Shown piece after piece: positions 46,554 through 54,272 of a stretch of DNA of 64,000 bases (positions are counted from its first letter, which is position 1; each line of letters begins with the position of its first letter). The stretch is from Pseudarthrobacter sp. Fe7 (lineage in GTDB: Bacteria; Actinomycetota; Actinomycetes; Actinomycetales; Micrococcaceae). The translations under genes were made by a program, and so were the position numbers. The notes under the pieces were generated by a model. The model was not told where the DNA came from. It ran no database searches and saw only the letters and a program-made list of their open reading frames with translations. Location: the NCBI GenBank assembly GCA_024372495.1, contig CP099977.1, forward strand, positions 4,216,001-4,280,000, read 5' to 3'.

Positions 46554-47054
46554 ATGAGTATACGCATCATTCCGGCTGTGCCCGGGCCCGGGCAGGAGTC
46601 GGTGTGGGACTATCCCCGCCCGCCGCGCATCGAACCAAGCAGCGAACGGATACGCATCGTCCTTGGCGGCGAACTGATCCTTGACACCACCGATTCGCTG
46701 CGCGTTCTCGAGACCAGCCACCCACCGGTGTACTACGTCCTGCAGTCAGCATTCGCGTCCGGTGCGCTGGAGCCCGCGTCTGGCAGCAGCTTCTGCGAAT
46801 TCAAGGGCTCGGCCAGGTATCTGACCGTTCGCGGCGGCGGCAAGGAAGCGGACAGCGCCGCCTGGTCCTACCCCGAGCCGGCGTCCGGGTTCGAGGCGCT
46901 CGCTGACCGGGTGGCCGTCTACCCGGCCCGGATGGATTACTGCGAAGTGGATGGCGAGCGGGTCCAGGCACAGCCAGGCCGATTCTATGGCGGCTGGATC
47001 ACCAGCCGCGTGGTTGGCCCCTTCAAGGGCGAACCGGGGACAATGGACTGGTAA
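46554..47054 (+). CDS. DUF427 protein
   Basis: 166 aa, intact. The core (RIRIVLGGELILDTTDSLRVLET, then PPVYYV and a C-terminal MDYCEVDGERVQAQPGRFYGGWIT segment, in outline) is the compact beta-barrel DUF427 domain. The function is unknown. ATG 46554 has CTGGAGG upstream. It lies 43 bp after XPB and 73 bp before the response regulator, with no sign that it belongs to either unit. Confidence 0.87.
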   Translation: MSIRIIPAVPGPGQESVWDYPRPPRIEPSSERIRIVLGGELILDTTDSLRVLETSHPPVYYVLQSAFASGALEPASGSSFCEFKGSARYLTVRGGGKEADSAAWSYPEPASGFEALADRVAVYPARMDYCEVDGERVQAQPGRFYGGWITSRVVGPFKGEPGTMDW

Positions 47055-47127
47055 CCGCGAGGCCGCCCTCAACATGCTCACAACGAATATCCAGACAACT
47101 CCCAGAGACTGGGAGCATTATGGGAGC

Positions 47128-47838
47128 ATGAACAAGAACGGTCCAGAAGCCAGGCTGCTCGTCGTCGATGATGAACCCAACATCCGCGAGCTCCTCTCCA
47201 CGTCACTGCGGTTCGCCGGCTTTGAAGTGGTTTCCGCCGCGAACGGACGCGACGCCCTCGCGGCGGCCGATACCCACGCCCCTGACCTGGCCGTGCTGGA
47301 CGTCATGCTCCCTGACATGGACGGCTTCACCGTGACCCGCCGGCTCCGCGCCTCCGGCAAGCACTTCCCCGTCCTCTTCCTGACCGCCAAGGACGACACC
47401 GAGGACAAGGTTACCGGGCTGACAGTGGGCGGCGACGACTACGTCACCAAGCCCTTCAGCCTCGACGAAGTGGTGGCAAGGATCCGCGCCGTTCTCCGCC
47501 GCACCCAGCCCCTGCTGGACGACGACGCTGTCATCCGCGTGGACGACCTGGAACTTGACGACGACGCCCACGAGGTACGGCGCGGCGGCACTGTCATCGA
47601 GCTCTCCCCCACGGAATTCAAGCTGCTCCGGTACCTCATGCTCAACCCCAACCGGGTCCTGTCCAAGTCGCAGATCCTGGACCACGTCTGGGAGTACAAC
47701 TTCAACGGGGATGCGTCCATCGTGGAGTCCTACATCTCCTACCTGCGGCGGAAAGTGGACATCGACCCCGAGGCGCCGGCCCTGATCCAGACCAAGCGCG
47801 GCGTGGGCTACGTCCTGCGGACGGCTGAAAAGCGCTGA
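47128..47838 (+). CDS. OmpR-family response regulator
   Basis: 236 aa. The receiver domain has VVDDEPNIRELL acidic residues, the phosphoacceptor aspartate in LAVLDVMLPDMDGF and the lysine in DYVTKPFSLDE. A C-terminal winged helix follows (LSPTEFKLLRYLMLNPNRVLSKSQILDHVW). It is most like MprA/TrcR-type actinobacterial regulators. ATG 47128 is chosen (MNKNGPEA); the frame extends upstream into the DUF427 gene. The histidine kinase follows 2 bp after its stop. Confidence 0.95.
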   Translation: MNKNGPEARLLVVDDEPNIRELLSTSLRFAGFEVVSAANGRDALAAADTHAPDLAVLDVMLPDMDGFTVTRRLRASGKHFPVLFLTAKDDTEDKVTGLTVGGDDYVTKPFSLDEVVARIRAVLRRTQPLLDDDAVIRVDDLELDDDAHEVRRGGTVIELSPTEFKLLRYLMLNPNRVLSKSQILDHVWEYNFNGDASIVESYISYLRRKVDIDPEAPALIQTKRGVGYVLRTAEKR

Positions 47839-47840
47839 CC

Positions 47841-49351
47841 TTGCTGAAGCGGTGGAAGTCGGCCTCGCTCAGGTCGCAGCTGGTGGCCATGATCATGGCA
47901 CTGCTGATCGTGGCCCTGACGGTGACCGGCGCGGTGACCCTGACGCTGCTTCACAGCTACCTGCAGGGCCAGGTGGATGACAAGCTGAACGCCGCCGTCG
48001 ACTCCGCCCGGAAGCAACGCTCCTTCACGCAGCTGCAGGCACCCAGGCTCCATTCCCACCGACTATTCGCTGATGCTCTTCACCCAAGGGGAACAGCCGT
48101 ACACATTCGGCGGAGACCCTGACGACCATCCGGACATCAGCAACATCACCGTGGAACAGGCCCAGACCCGTGGCCTGACCCCCTTCCAGGTCCGGGGGAC
48201 AGATGGAGAAAACTGGCGCGTTGTGGCAGTTACGGTCCAGAACGGATCAGCCACCGCTGTTGTGGTCATCGGGCTCCCCTGGCCAGCGTGGACGACGTCC
48301 TCAAGCATGCCACCCTGGTGGTGACCGGCGTGGGCCTGCTGACGCTGCTGTTGGCTTCGCTCATTGCGAGCCTGGACCGTGTCGCGCTCCTTCAGGCCCC
48401 TTGCCAGGGTGGAGAAAACGGCAGCTGCCATTGCCGCCGGCGACCTCTCCCGCCGCGTGGAAGTGGAAAATCCCACCACTGAGCTGGGCAGGCTGAGCAG
48501 CTCCTCAACGCCATGCTGGCGCATATCGAGACCGCGTTCGCGGCCCGGACGGCCTCCGAGGCAAGGATGCGCCGGTTCGCTGCCGATGCCTCGCACGAAC
48601 TGCGCACCCCCTGGTGACCATCCGCGGGTTCTCGGAGCTGTACCGCCACGGAGCCCTGGCCACTGATGAAGACGTGGCAACGGCCATGGGCCGGATCGAA
48701 AGCGAAGCCAAGCGCATGGGGTCCATGGTTGAGGACCTGCTCCTGTTGGCCCGCCTTGACGAACAGCGCCCCCTGCAGAAAAAGCCCGTGGACCTGCAGC
48801 TGGTTGCCCACGATGCTGTGGTGGACACCCAGGCCAGCGACCGGTCCAGGGCCATCTCGCTGACCGGGCTCGACGGCGGACCGGCGGCCCCTGCCCCGGT
48901 CCTCGGGGACGAGGCCAAGCTGCGCCAAGTGGTGGGAAATCTTGTGGGCAATGCATTGCGGTACACCCCCGAGGGCAGCCCCATCGAACTCGCCGTGGGA
49001 GTTCGTGTGAACGACGGAAGGGAGCGGTCCGTCATCGAAGTACGGGACCATGGGCCGGGCATTTCGGAAGACGACGCGGCCAAGGTCTTTGAACGCTTCT
49101 ATCGGGCCGACACCTCCCGCACCAGGGAGACAGGCGGCAGCGGCCTTGGGCTGGCCATTGTGGCGGCGATCGTCGGTTCGCACGGCGGCTCGGTCCGGGT
49201 GGAGAAGACCGACGGCGGCGGCGCCACCTTGGTGGTCAGCCTTCCGCGGTGGGAGGACGCCCCGCACGACGGCGGCGGAGTCGGGCACAAGGCAACGGCC
49301 GGCAGTACCGCAAGCGCCAAGGGCAGCGACGGGTCGGTTATCCACATATAA
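47841..49351 (+). CDS. Sensor histidine kinase (four frame breaks)
   Basis: About 504 aa after correction. Membrane segment 1 (LVAMIMALLIVALTVTGAVTL), an extracytoplasmic sensor of about 100 residues, membrane segment 2 (TLVVTGVGLLTLLLASLIAS), HAMP, HisKA with FAADASHELRTPLVTIRGF, then N box NLVGNALRYTPEG, G1 DHGPGI and G2 GGSGLGLAIV. Start TTG 47841 is 2 bp after the regulator stop. Breaks: 48045-48049 (AGGCT for AGCT), 48276-48279 and 48606-48610 (C runs one short), and near 48490 (one base missing, probably CCC read as CC). All domains are intact once these are corrected. Confidence 0.9.
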
Positions 49352-49455: not shown

Positions 49456-49743
49456 ATGAGCATCATTTCCGTCGACACAGAACTACTGCAGCTCAAGTCC
49501 GCCAACGTGCAGGCCACCGTGGACCGGATCAGCGCGGACGTGCAAGCGATGAAACGCGGATTGGACGAGCTTCAGGGTTCCTGGCGGGGTTCAGCAGCCA
49601 CCAACTTCCAGGCACTGGTCACCGAGTGGACCATCACCCAGGGCCGGGTGGAGGCTTCCCTGGCATCCATCAACGGAGCGCTGGCCTCTGCCGCCGCCAC
49701 CTATGCCCAGGCGGAGCAGGGAAACACACAGCGGTTCAGCTGA
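49456..49743 (+). CDS. WXG100-family (EsxA-like) protein
   Basis: 95 aa, the usual size. Two predicted helices flank a central WRG turn (LQGSWRGSAATNFQ), the WXG signature. ESX/type VII systems secrete such small helical hairpins as dimers. No EccC, EccD or second WXG100 gene is in the window, so the secretion partner lies elsewhere or the protein has been recruited for another role. ATG 49456 has GAAAGGC upstream. Confidence 0.9.
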   Translation: MSIISVDTELLQLKSANVQATVDRISADVQAMKRGLDELQGSWRGSAATNFQALVTEWTITQGRVEASLASINGALASAAATYAQAEQGNTQRFS

Positions 49744-49752
49744 CGCCCCGGC

Positions 49753-50852
49753 TCAGGCCTCCGGAGTCCCCTGGTGGAACCGCAGCCGCCACCGGCCTCC
49801 GTCAAGGACCCACAGCGAACTGCGGAGCGTATTGCCGGAGCGCGCGGAGCTTCGGTACGTCAGCAGGACCGCGCTGGTGCCGATGCGCTCGGCTCCCAGG
49901 ATTTCAATGTCGGTCCGTTCACCCGGGTCCTCTTCGAGCGCCATCATCATGGCATCCCGGGTCCACACCCTTCCGGAACTGCCTATTTCCATAAAGTCCG
50001 GGTGCAGAAGGACGGCGGTCCGCCCGATGTCCCCGCGCACCAGGGGGCCCAGCAGCTCACGTTCCAGTTTTTCCACCAGCGCTTCGGGCGGGATGGAGCC
50101 GGCCTGCCGCGTTGCCTCAGCCACTTCAAGGGCTTCGTTGTCCAGTTCGCTGAACAGGTCAAGCTCTTCGAAGGCTGACACCGGCGCAGGTGTGGCCGCG
50201 GGTGCGTTGCCGGGTGCCGGCGCGTTGCCAGGTGCCGGCGCTTTGCCGGCGGGGGCGCTGCAGGGCGCGCGGGCGCAGGGGGTGCAGGGGGCATAGCGGC
50301 GGGGATATCCAGGGTGGCAGGCGGAAGGCCGACGCCGGAGGCAGGCTGCGCGGCCGCGGCATGCCCGGAGGCGCCCGGGTGGTGGGCGCCGGGAAAACCG
50401 GGGCCTGATCGGGCTGCCACCCCCTGCTGGTAGGCGGTCGCCGCGGCCCTGGCCCGCTCGTCGGCGGCCTCATTCAGGTAATGGCCGGCGTGCCCCTTGA
50501 CCCATTCGAAGGTGTAGGTCCTGCCGGCCAGTTCGCGGTCGAGTTCCTTCAGGAGTTCCACGTTCAGGACGGGTTTTCCATCGGCCTTACGCCAGCCCTT
50601 GCGCTTCCATCCCGGCATCCATTTGGTAATGGAGTTGATCACGTACTGGCTGTCGCAAAGGATGCGCAGGTCTTCCCCGGGCAGATGCGCAGTGGCGCGC
50701 AGGAGGTCAAGGACGGCCATTAGCTCCCCCTGGTTGTTGGTCCCGTGCGGCCAGCCGCCGGCGCGCCAGCAATCGTCATTCACGTACCATGCCCAGCCGG
50801 CCGGACCGGGGTTTCCCAAGGCCGAACCGTCAGCCGCTGCAGTAATCGTCAC
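49753..50852 (-). CDS. RNase HI fused to an NTF2-like (DUF4440) domain (one frame break)
   Basis: About 366 aa after correction. Residues 1-150 are RNase HI with the metal-binding acids in ADGSALGNPGPAGWAW, NQGELMAVLDLL, LCDSQYVINS and NEAADERA. A Pro/Ala/Gly linker (about 85 residues, with repeated APAPGN units) leads to a C-terminal NTF2-like/DUF4440 domain (LDNEALEVAEATRQ to GRWRLRFHQGTPEA). The frame breaks in the linker at 50251-50255, where a GGGGG run should be six; one base restores a single chain. Start GTG 50852. It would degrade RNA in RNA-DNA hybrids; the second domain's ligand is unknown. Confidence 0.85.
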
Positions 50853-52456: not shown

Positions 52457-54138
<1,682 letters not shown>

Positions 54139-54272
54139 CTACAGTGCCCGCGACGGACGATCCTTCTGCCGGCGGCCTCTGTATGCCTCCGGGTGGGGAT
54201 CTCACTGAAGTGAGGTGTTTCTTTCGCTCCTCGGCCGGTGCCGCGCGCCGCCGGGTGGAACCAGGCATTGCT

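Follow-up and report, generated by a model that had tools for sequence, protein, structure and literature searches.

The question raised by this locus is whether an RNase HI and a DUF4440 domain that are read in different frames belong to one protein and, if so, what the second domain and the linker might do for the enzyme. The window analysed here is a 64,000-nucleotide stretch of the Pseudarthrobacter sp. Fe7 genome; the two domains lie within positions 49753-50852 on the minus strand, where the DUF4440 frame ends at a stop codon at 49753-49755 (Table 1). Pfam identifies RNase_H in the RNase HI piece with E 2.2e-30 (106.1 bits, cut-off 25.8) and DUF4440 in the other with E 1.1e-16 (61.6 bits, cut-off 25.2). 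The RNase_H match begins at residue 4 and no other Pfam domain was found in that piece, so an N-terminal hybrid-binding domain (dsRHbd) is absent. A CobC/phosphatase domain is absent too, as Pfam gives RNase_H and DUF4440 alone in the window pieces and in an intact relative, L185. Among NCBIfam families the best is PRK06548 (ribonuclease H), yet its 169.6 bits lie below the cut-off of 280, and PRK07238 reaches 24.4 bits against a cut-off of 326. D8, E43, D67 and D131, which we take to be the DEDD catalytic residues of RNase HI, are conserved in 157 of 157 relatives' proteins. By profile and by these residues the protein, which is the only PF00075 match in the window's genome, is a type 1 RNase H, with hybrid cleavage as its predicted activity. 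Adjoining the gene is a lone 95-residue protein (49456-49743), presumably WXG100/ESAT-6-like from its sequence.

Table 1. Parts of the RNase HI-DUF4440 gene, by position in the window
Feature	Positions	Strand	Remarks
RNase HI catalytic domain, 146 residues	50415..50852	-	starts with GTG at 50852; PF00075
Linker, divergent, probably disordered	50167..50414	-	modelled with low pLDDT in L185, an intact relative
Frame-change stretch, three G runs of five on the + strand	50240..50290	-	almost surely an assembly error
APAPGN, two copies, not conserved	50206..50241	-	
ELDLFSEL, clamp-binding-like motif	50143..50166	-	conservation, DnaE1 counterpart, published consensus
DUF4440 / NTF2-like domain	49783..50076	-	PF14534, predicted fold, structural matches

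Comparison with related genomes indicates that the change of frame is almost surely a sequencing or assembly error. Against a sister genome (G035), 21 of 53 window genes are split over at least two frames, 28 are intact and 4 partial; the split ones include the RNase HI gene and the gene at 52460-54268 (GroEL, we presume from its sequence). A second count gave 22 split genes out of 54; a 20 kb stretch of another sister genome, taken as control, had 1 out of 18, and the sole split control gene was this same RNase HI reading frame, extended upstream, which occupies one frame in the relatives' locus comparison. Completeness of the window's genome, assembled in two contigs, is 78.9%. Its assembly is error-rich, and because 21 of 53 genes are split, any apparent pseudogene or gene split within positions 1-64000 is doubtful. 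DNA alignment to five relatives places the break in the linker, near the stretch given in Table 1, where G runs of five lie at 50251-50255, 50278-50282 and 50287-50291. The earlier note had assigned it to the run at 50251: the break does fall among G runs, but 50251 is one possible site of three, and the linker is too divergent for the responsible run to be identified. That the break is genuine, so that RNase HI is truncated or two products arise by programmed frameshifting, would suit its location among G runs but is hardly credible, given that 58 of 58 relatives' loci are in frame, that the window's other split genes are broken in the same way, that the sister-genome control gave one split gene and that one a single frame in relatives, and that the assembly is incomplete. 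Counting single-base gaps at nucleotide level against one relative proved uninformative, as the control likewise showed many out-of-frame gaps; 147 single bases were missing, and just 32 of these fell in runs of at least three. Other assemblies interrupt the RNase HI-DUF4440 gene at different points, with DUF4440 in two pieces in G030 and G132. Also in the window, the stretch at 47841-49351, presumably a two-component histidine kinase from its sequence, lies in pieces in different frames beside 46951-47838, presumably a response regulator, probably through the same kind of error.

In relatives the two domains form one chain. RNase HI and DUF4440 share a single open frame in all 58 relatives' loci fetched (56 distinct genomes; 61 loci had been fetched at that stage, three of them the window's own), close relatives being over-weighted among the 58 because the loci are best matches. 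The fusion that had been read from the window through a one-base correction is thus confirmed, and none of these loci encodes the two separate proteins that would have spoken against it. Among 80 named loci, again best matches, 79 have a frame that, counted from the start of RNase HI, continues for 285 residues or more without a stop; the exception, L227, stops after residue 74, at a different place. These 80 loci span Arthrobacter, Pseudarthrobacter, Paenarthrobacter, Sinomonas, Kocuria, Leifsonia, Nocardioides, Knoellia and Brachybacterium, among others. The window's DUF4440 was matched in 148 of 150 genus genomes and its RNase HI in 146 of 197 family genomes, a few of the latter being weak matches to other RNases H. 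A search for a mobile origin returned one distant DUF4440 match in phages (31% identity), and among 788 matching plasmid records the fusion was covered to at least 80% in one, from Arthrobacter sp. StoSoilB13. One record labelled Sporosarcina, a Firmicute, holds an actinobacterial copy of the fusion (L235) and is perhaps mislabelled or contaminated.

Between the domains lies a linker of 26-214 residues (a fixed-length estimate over 85 DUF4440-bearing orthologues). The earlier note had stressed its APAPGN repeat. Two copies are indeed present in the window, but the repeat occurs in none of 157 relatives' proteins; a functional repeat was set aside on that ground, and by this comparison APAPGN is incidental. 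What is conserved is a different element, the window's ELDLFSEL, with the consensus [E/Q][P/L]DLFSxL and variants such as EPDLFSEL, QADLFSEL, QLDLFSSL and QDDLFSSL; in the L185 model the LF motif lies within the low-confidence linker. The orthologue set comprised 154 distinct sequences from genus, family, order and class, of which 94 have tails of at least 100 residues, 38 have tails of 15-99 and 22 have no tail. The pattern DLF[SAGDT]x[LFM] was found in 66 of the 94 long-tailed orthologues (shuffle mean 0.16, highest 2 in 300 shuffles), and 15 of the 38 with tails of 15-99 residues carry LF among their final five residues (shuffle mean 0.19, highest 2 in 1000); both patterns are absent from all 22 tail-less orthologues. 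Because shuffled tails almost never give the pattern, the motif is not a product of chance, and since the shuffles preserve composition and not kinship, they speak to chance and not to the number of gains. Positions 3-5 are fixed by the search pattern; at the free positions, the 70 DUF4440-bearing orthologues with the motif have E or Q in 63 (E 50, Q 13), P or L in 59, S in 65 and L in 61. The shorter pattern xx[DS]LF is present in 70 of the 80 named loci. Two or more xx[DESTA]LF sites occur in the tail of 26 of these 80, for example QPDLFTEPDLFSELE in L208, and are possibly repeated clamp sites.

The motif and DUF4440 do not always travel together. A DUF4440 profile built from sequences of the RNase HI-DUF4440 family and run on the 154 orthologues found the domain in 85, with the strict motif in 70 and without it in 15; a relaxed pattern, chosen afterwards, is matched by eight of these 15, perhaps by chance in some cases, and seven fit neither pattern. 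Another 15 of the 154 have the motif with neither DUF4440 nor a ribbon-helix-helix (RHH)-like stretch, 19 have an RHH-like stretch and lack the strict motif (four of them fit the relaxed after-the-fact pattern), and 13 have tails with none of the three. The 15 motif-only sequences fall at three places in the tree: a group of eight, four members of a group of five, and L102, L127 and L128. The last three carry no DUF4440 in any frame (the nine-residue query match in L128 overlies the motif itself); L127 ends in DADLFSGL and L128 in ELDLFSLL. They sit within a group that includes DUF4440-bearing sequences (SH-aLRT 94) and look like cases in which DUF4440 was lost and the motif kept, as read from a weak tree. 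Because that tree rests on 140 columns for 132 sequences and has many open forks, the numbers of gains and losses are rough.

The DUF4440 domain itself has an NTF2-like fold, as the earlier note had supposed: the AlphaFold2 model of the window's domain has a mean pLDDT of 88.9, and its best structural matches are NTF2-like proteins and CaMKII association (hub) domains, with Z about 14-17 (about 14-15 for the CaMKII hub folds). The closest is 2r4i (Z 16.6, rmsd 1.7 over 110 residues); others are ketosteroid-isomerase-like proteins, NTF2 itself and designed ligand binders. Sequence profiles matched 3ksp with E 0.0008, an entry deposited as a CaMKII association-like domain, and also reached 2r4i (E 0.002). 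On the strength of this predicted fold a dimerising or association role for DUF4440 is plausible. Over 55 pairs of 11 sequences, RNase HI has a median dN/dS of 0.022 and DUF4440 one of 0.061, and with such values both domains are kept by selection. Purifying selection on DUF4440, together with the ketosteroid-isomerase-like proteins and ligand binders among the structural matches, would also fit a reading close to the suggestion of the earlier note, in which the domain is a ligand- or hybrid-binding regulator of RNase HI and the linker a spacer. We think this quite unlikely, as it leaves unexplained a conserved motif that is kept without the domain. Very unlikely, in our estimate, is that the tail is a fixed passenger in which DUF4440 serves a purpose apart from RNase HI or does nothing for the enzyme. 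Many orthologues lack DUF4440 or have something else in its place, and a similar case has been argued for RNase HI-CobC, where deletion of CobC in MSMEG_4305 is described as hardly affecting RNase H function in vivo (PMC7466739). The dN/dS of DUF4440, its wide spread over actinomycete families and the conservation of the motif all argue against a passenger.

The part of the tail most likely to localise the RNase HI is the LF motif of the linker, a feature absent from the earlier note and retained in orthologues that lack DUF4440. By six-frame reading, DnaE1 of all six genomes examined, that of the window among them, carries QFDLF, which we take to be its clamp motif, followed by AGF, SAF or SAL (QFDLFAGF in the window's genome, QFDLFSAL in a sister genus). 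In Y-family loci the motif was unseen in the longest frame per locus, a shortcut that also overlooked DnaE1 in two of the six genomes, which makes this absence uninformative. The published clamp-binding consensus is QL[S/D]LF or QxxLF, with xxxLF in DnaE3 (PMC12309361), and the predicted clamp contact of mycobacterial DnaE1 is given as residues 947-954 (PMC10421592). The window's ELDLF has L-F at positions 4-5 and D at 3, in an unstructured stretch, as a QxxLF client should (the strict motif being present in 70 of 85 DUF4440-bearing orthologues), but it has E at position 1 where Q is expected. The paper giving the consensus calls the first position important for binding and describes residues other than Q as tolerated there in DnaE3 (PMC12309361).

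The frequency of E at position 1 is one of several points that could suggest another partner: the LF motif might bind a protein other than the clamp, for instance by mimicking the C-terminal tail of SSB, or might dock within the chain. SSB tails end in F, and several short-tailed orthologues have the motif as the last residues of the chain (..ALF, ..TLF), an ending that can be likened to theirs. E. coli RNase HI, moreover, is described as working through SSB (PMC11253446). In the fused proteins, however, the motif lies inside the chain, with SxL after it, and thus lacks a free C-terminus; its core DLF[SA]x[FL] matches DnaE1 of the same genomes; and since it persists without DUF4440, docking on that domain is not its sole role. 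We regard a non-clamp partner or an intramolecular site as unlikely.

The account towards which we lean, with modest confidence, is that a single chain combines RNase HI, a disordered linker with a clamp-binding motif and an NTF2-like association domain, and that it docks on the DnaN ring and pairs. The linker motif would dock RNase HI on DnaN at replication forks, and the docked enzyme would cut the RNA primers and R-loops met there. The NTF2-like domain would most likely pair two copies, an arrangement that would match the two identical binding clefts of the ring. Consistent with this account are the conservation of the motif far beyond shuffled tails and its retention where DUF4440 is absent, its resemblance to the DnaE1 motif of the same genome and to the published consensus (PMC12309361), the single frame in 58 of 58 relatives' loci with catalytic residues intact in all 157 proteins, and a DUF4440 fold near the CaMKII hubs with both domains under selection. 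Its weak points are that E is commoner than Q at position 1 (50 versus 13 of 70) and that the strict motif is missing in 15 of 85 DUF4440-bearing, 19 RHH-like and 13 other tailed orthologues. Association folds, too, need not associate, and RNase HI-CobC is reported to show that fused domains can act independently in vivo (PMC7466739).

RNase HI with extra domains has been described before, namely with dsRHbd and with an acid phosphatase domain (PMC1950709). The RNase HI-CobC/acid phosphatase proteins (SCO2299, Rv2228c, MSMEG_4305) are likewise described as actinobacterial type 1 RNases H with a variable linker and a second domain at the C-terminus (PMC7466739, PMC1950709), but the second domain here is NTF2-like and not a phosphatase. 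In E. coli a protein contact also brings RNase HI to the replisome (PMC11253446); there, however, the SSB tail binds RNase HI, whereas here a motif in the tail of RNase HI itself would bind the clamp. CaMKII holoenzymes share the plan of a catalytic domain, a variable linker and an NTF2-like association domain; unlike them, the present protein has no kinase, the fusion is known from sequence and single-chain models, and the match at sequence level is weak (3ksp). Archaeal RNase HII and eukaryotic RNase H2 bind PCNA through a PIP box. They too are RNases H with a short sliding-clamp motif, but they pair a type 2 enzyme with PCNA, where here a type 1 enzyme would meet DnaN. In the literature searched, which was mostly open-access, we found no report of the RNase HI-DUF4440 architecture, of its pairing or of its binding to the clamp, nor, among the matches listed, of a clamp motif in RNase HI. 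The fusion alone is a modest finding, to which the motif gives added weight. The route of bacterial RNase HI to forks has been described mainly for E. coli, via SSB; a clamp-tethered RNase HI, if true, would be a further, actinobacterial way of clearing primers and R-loops from the fork, and would compete for the clamp cleft that griselimycin is reported to block in mycobacteria (PMC10421592).

The orthologues with other tails allow a broader and more tentative proposal, which seems to us possible but on balance not probable: that RNase HI is a clamp client throughout a broad actinomycete group, its evolving tail joining a clamp motif, placed before a C-terminal domain or at the chain end, to exchangeable association modules. 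These modules would be NTF2-like in one group and possibly RHH-like in another, and a paired enzyme could fill both clefts of the ring as a bacterial counterpart of PCNA-tethered RNase H. The alternative tails have no Pfam domain above cut-off; a weak match to NikA-like, presumably an RHH family, appeared in two of four RHH-tail proteins searched against Pfam (E 0.003-0.004). The RHH label, drawn from the pattern and from a profile for which 14 of these very tails served as input, is a lead only. An RHH-like C-terminal stretch stands in place of DUF4440 in 19 loci among L069-L071, L087-L097 and L112-L116, and D-x-LF[SD] precedes it in four of them. Four RNase HI orthologues of one family (L129-L132) carry yet another conserved stretch at the C-terminus, which contains CxC and HPEC and perhaps binds metal.
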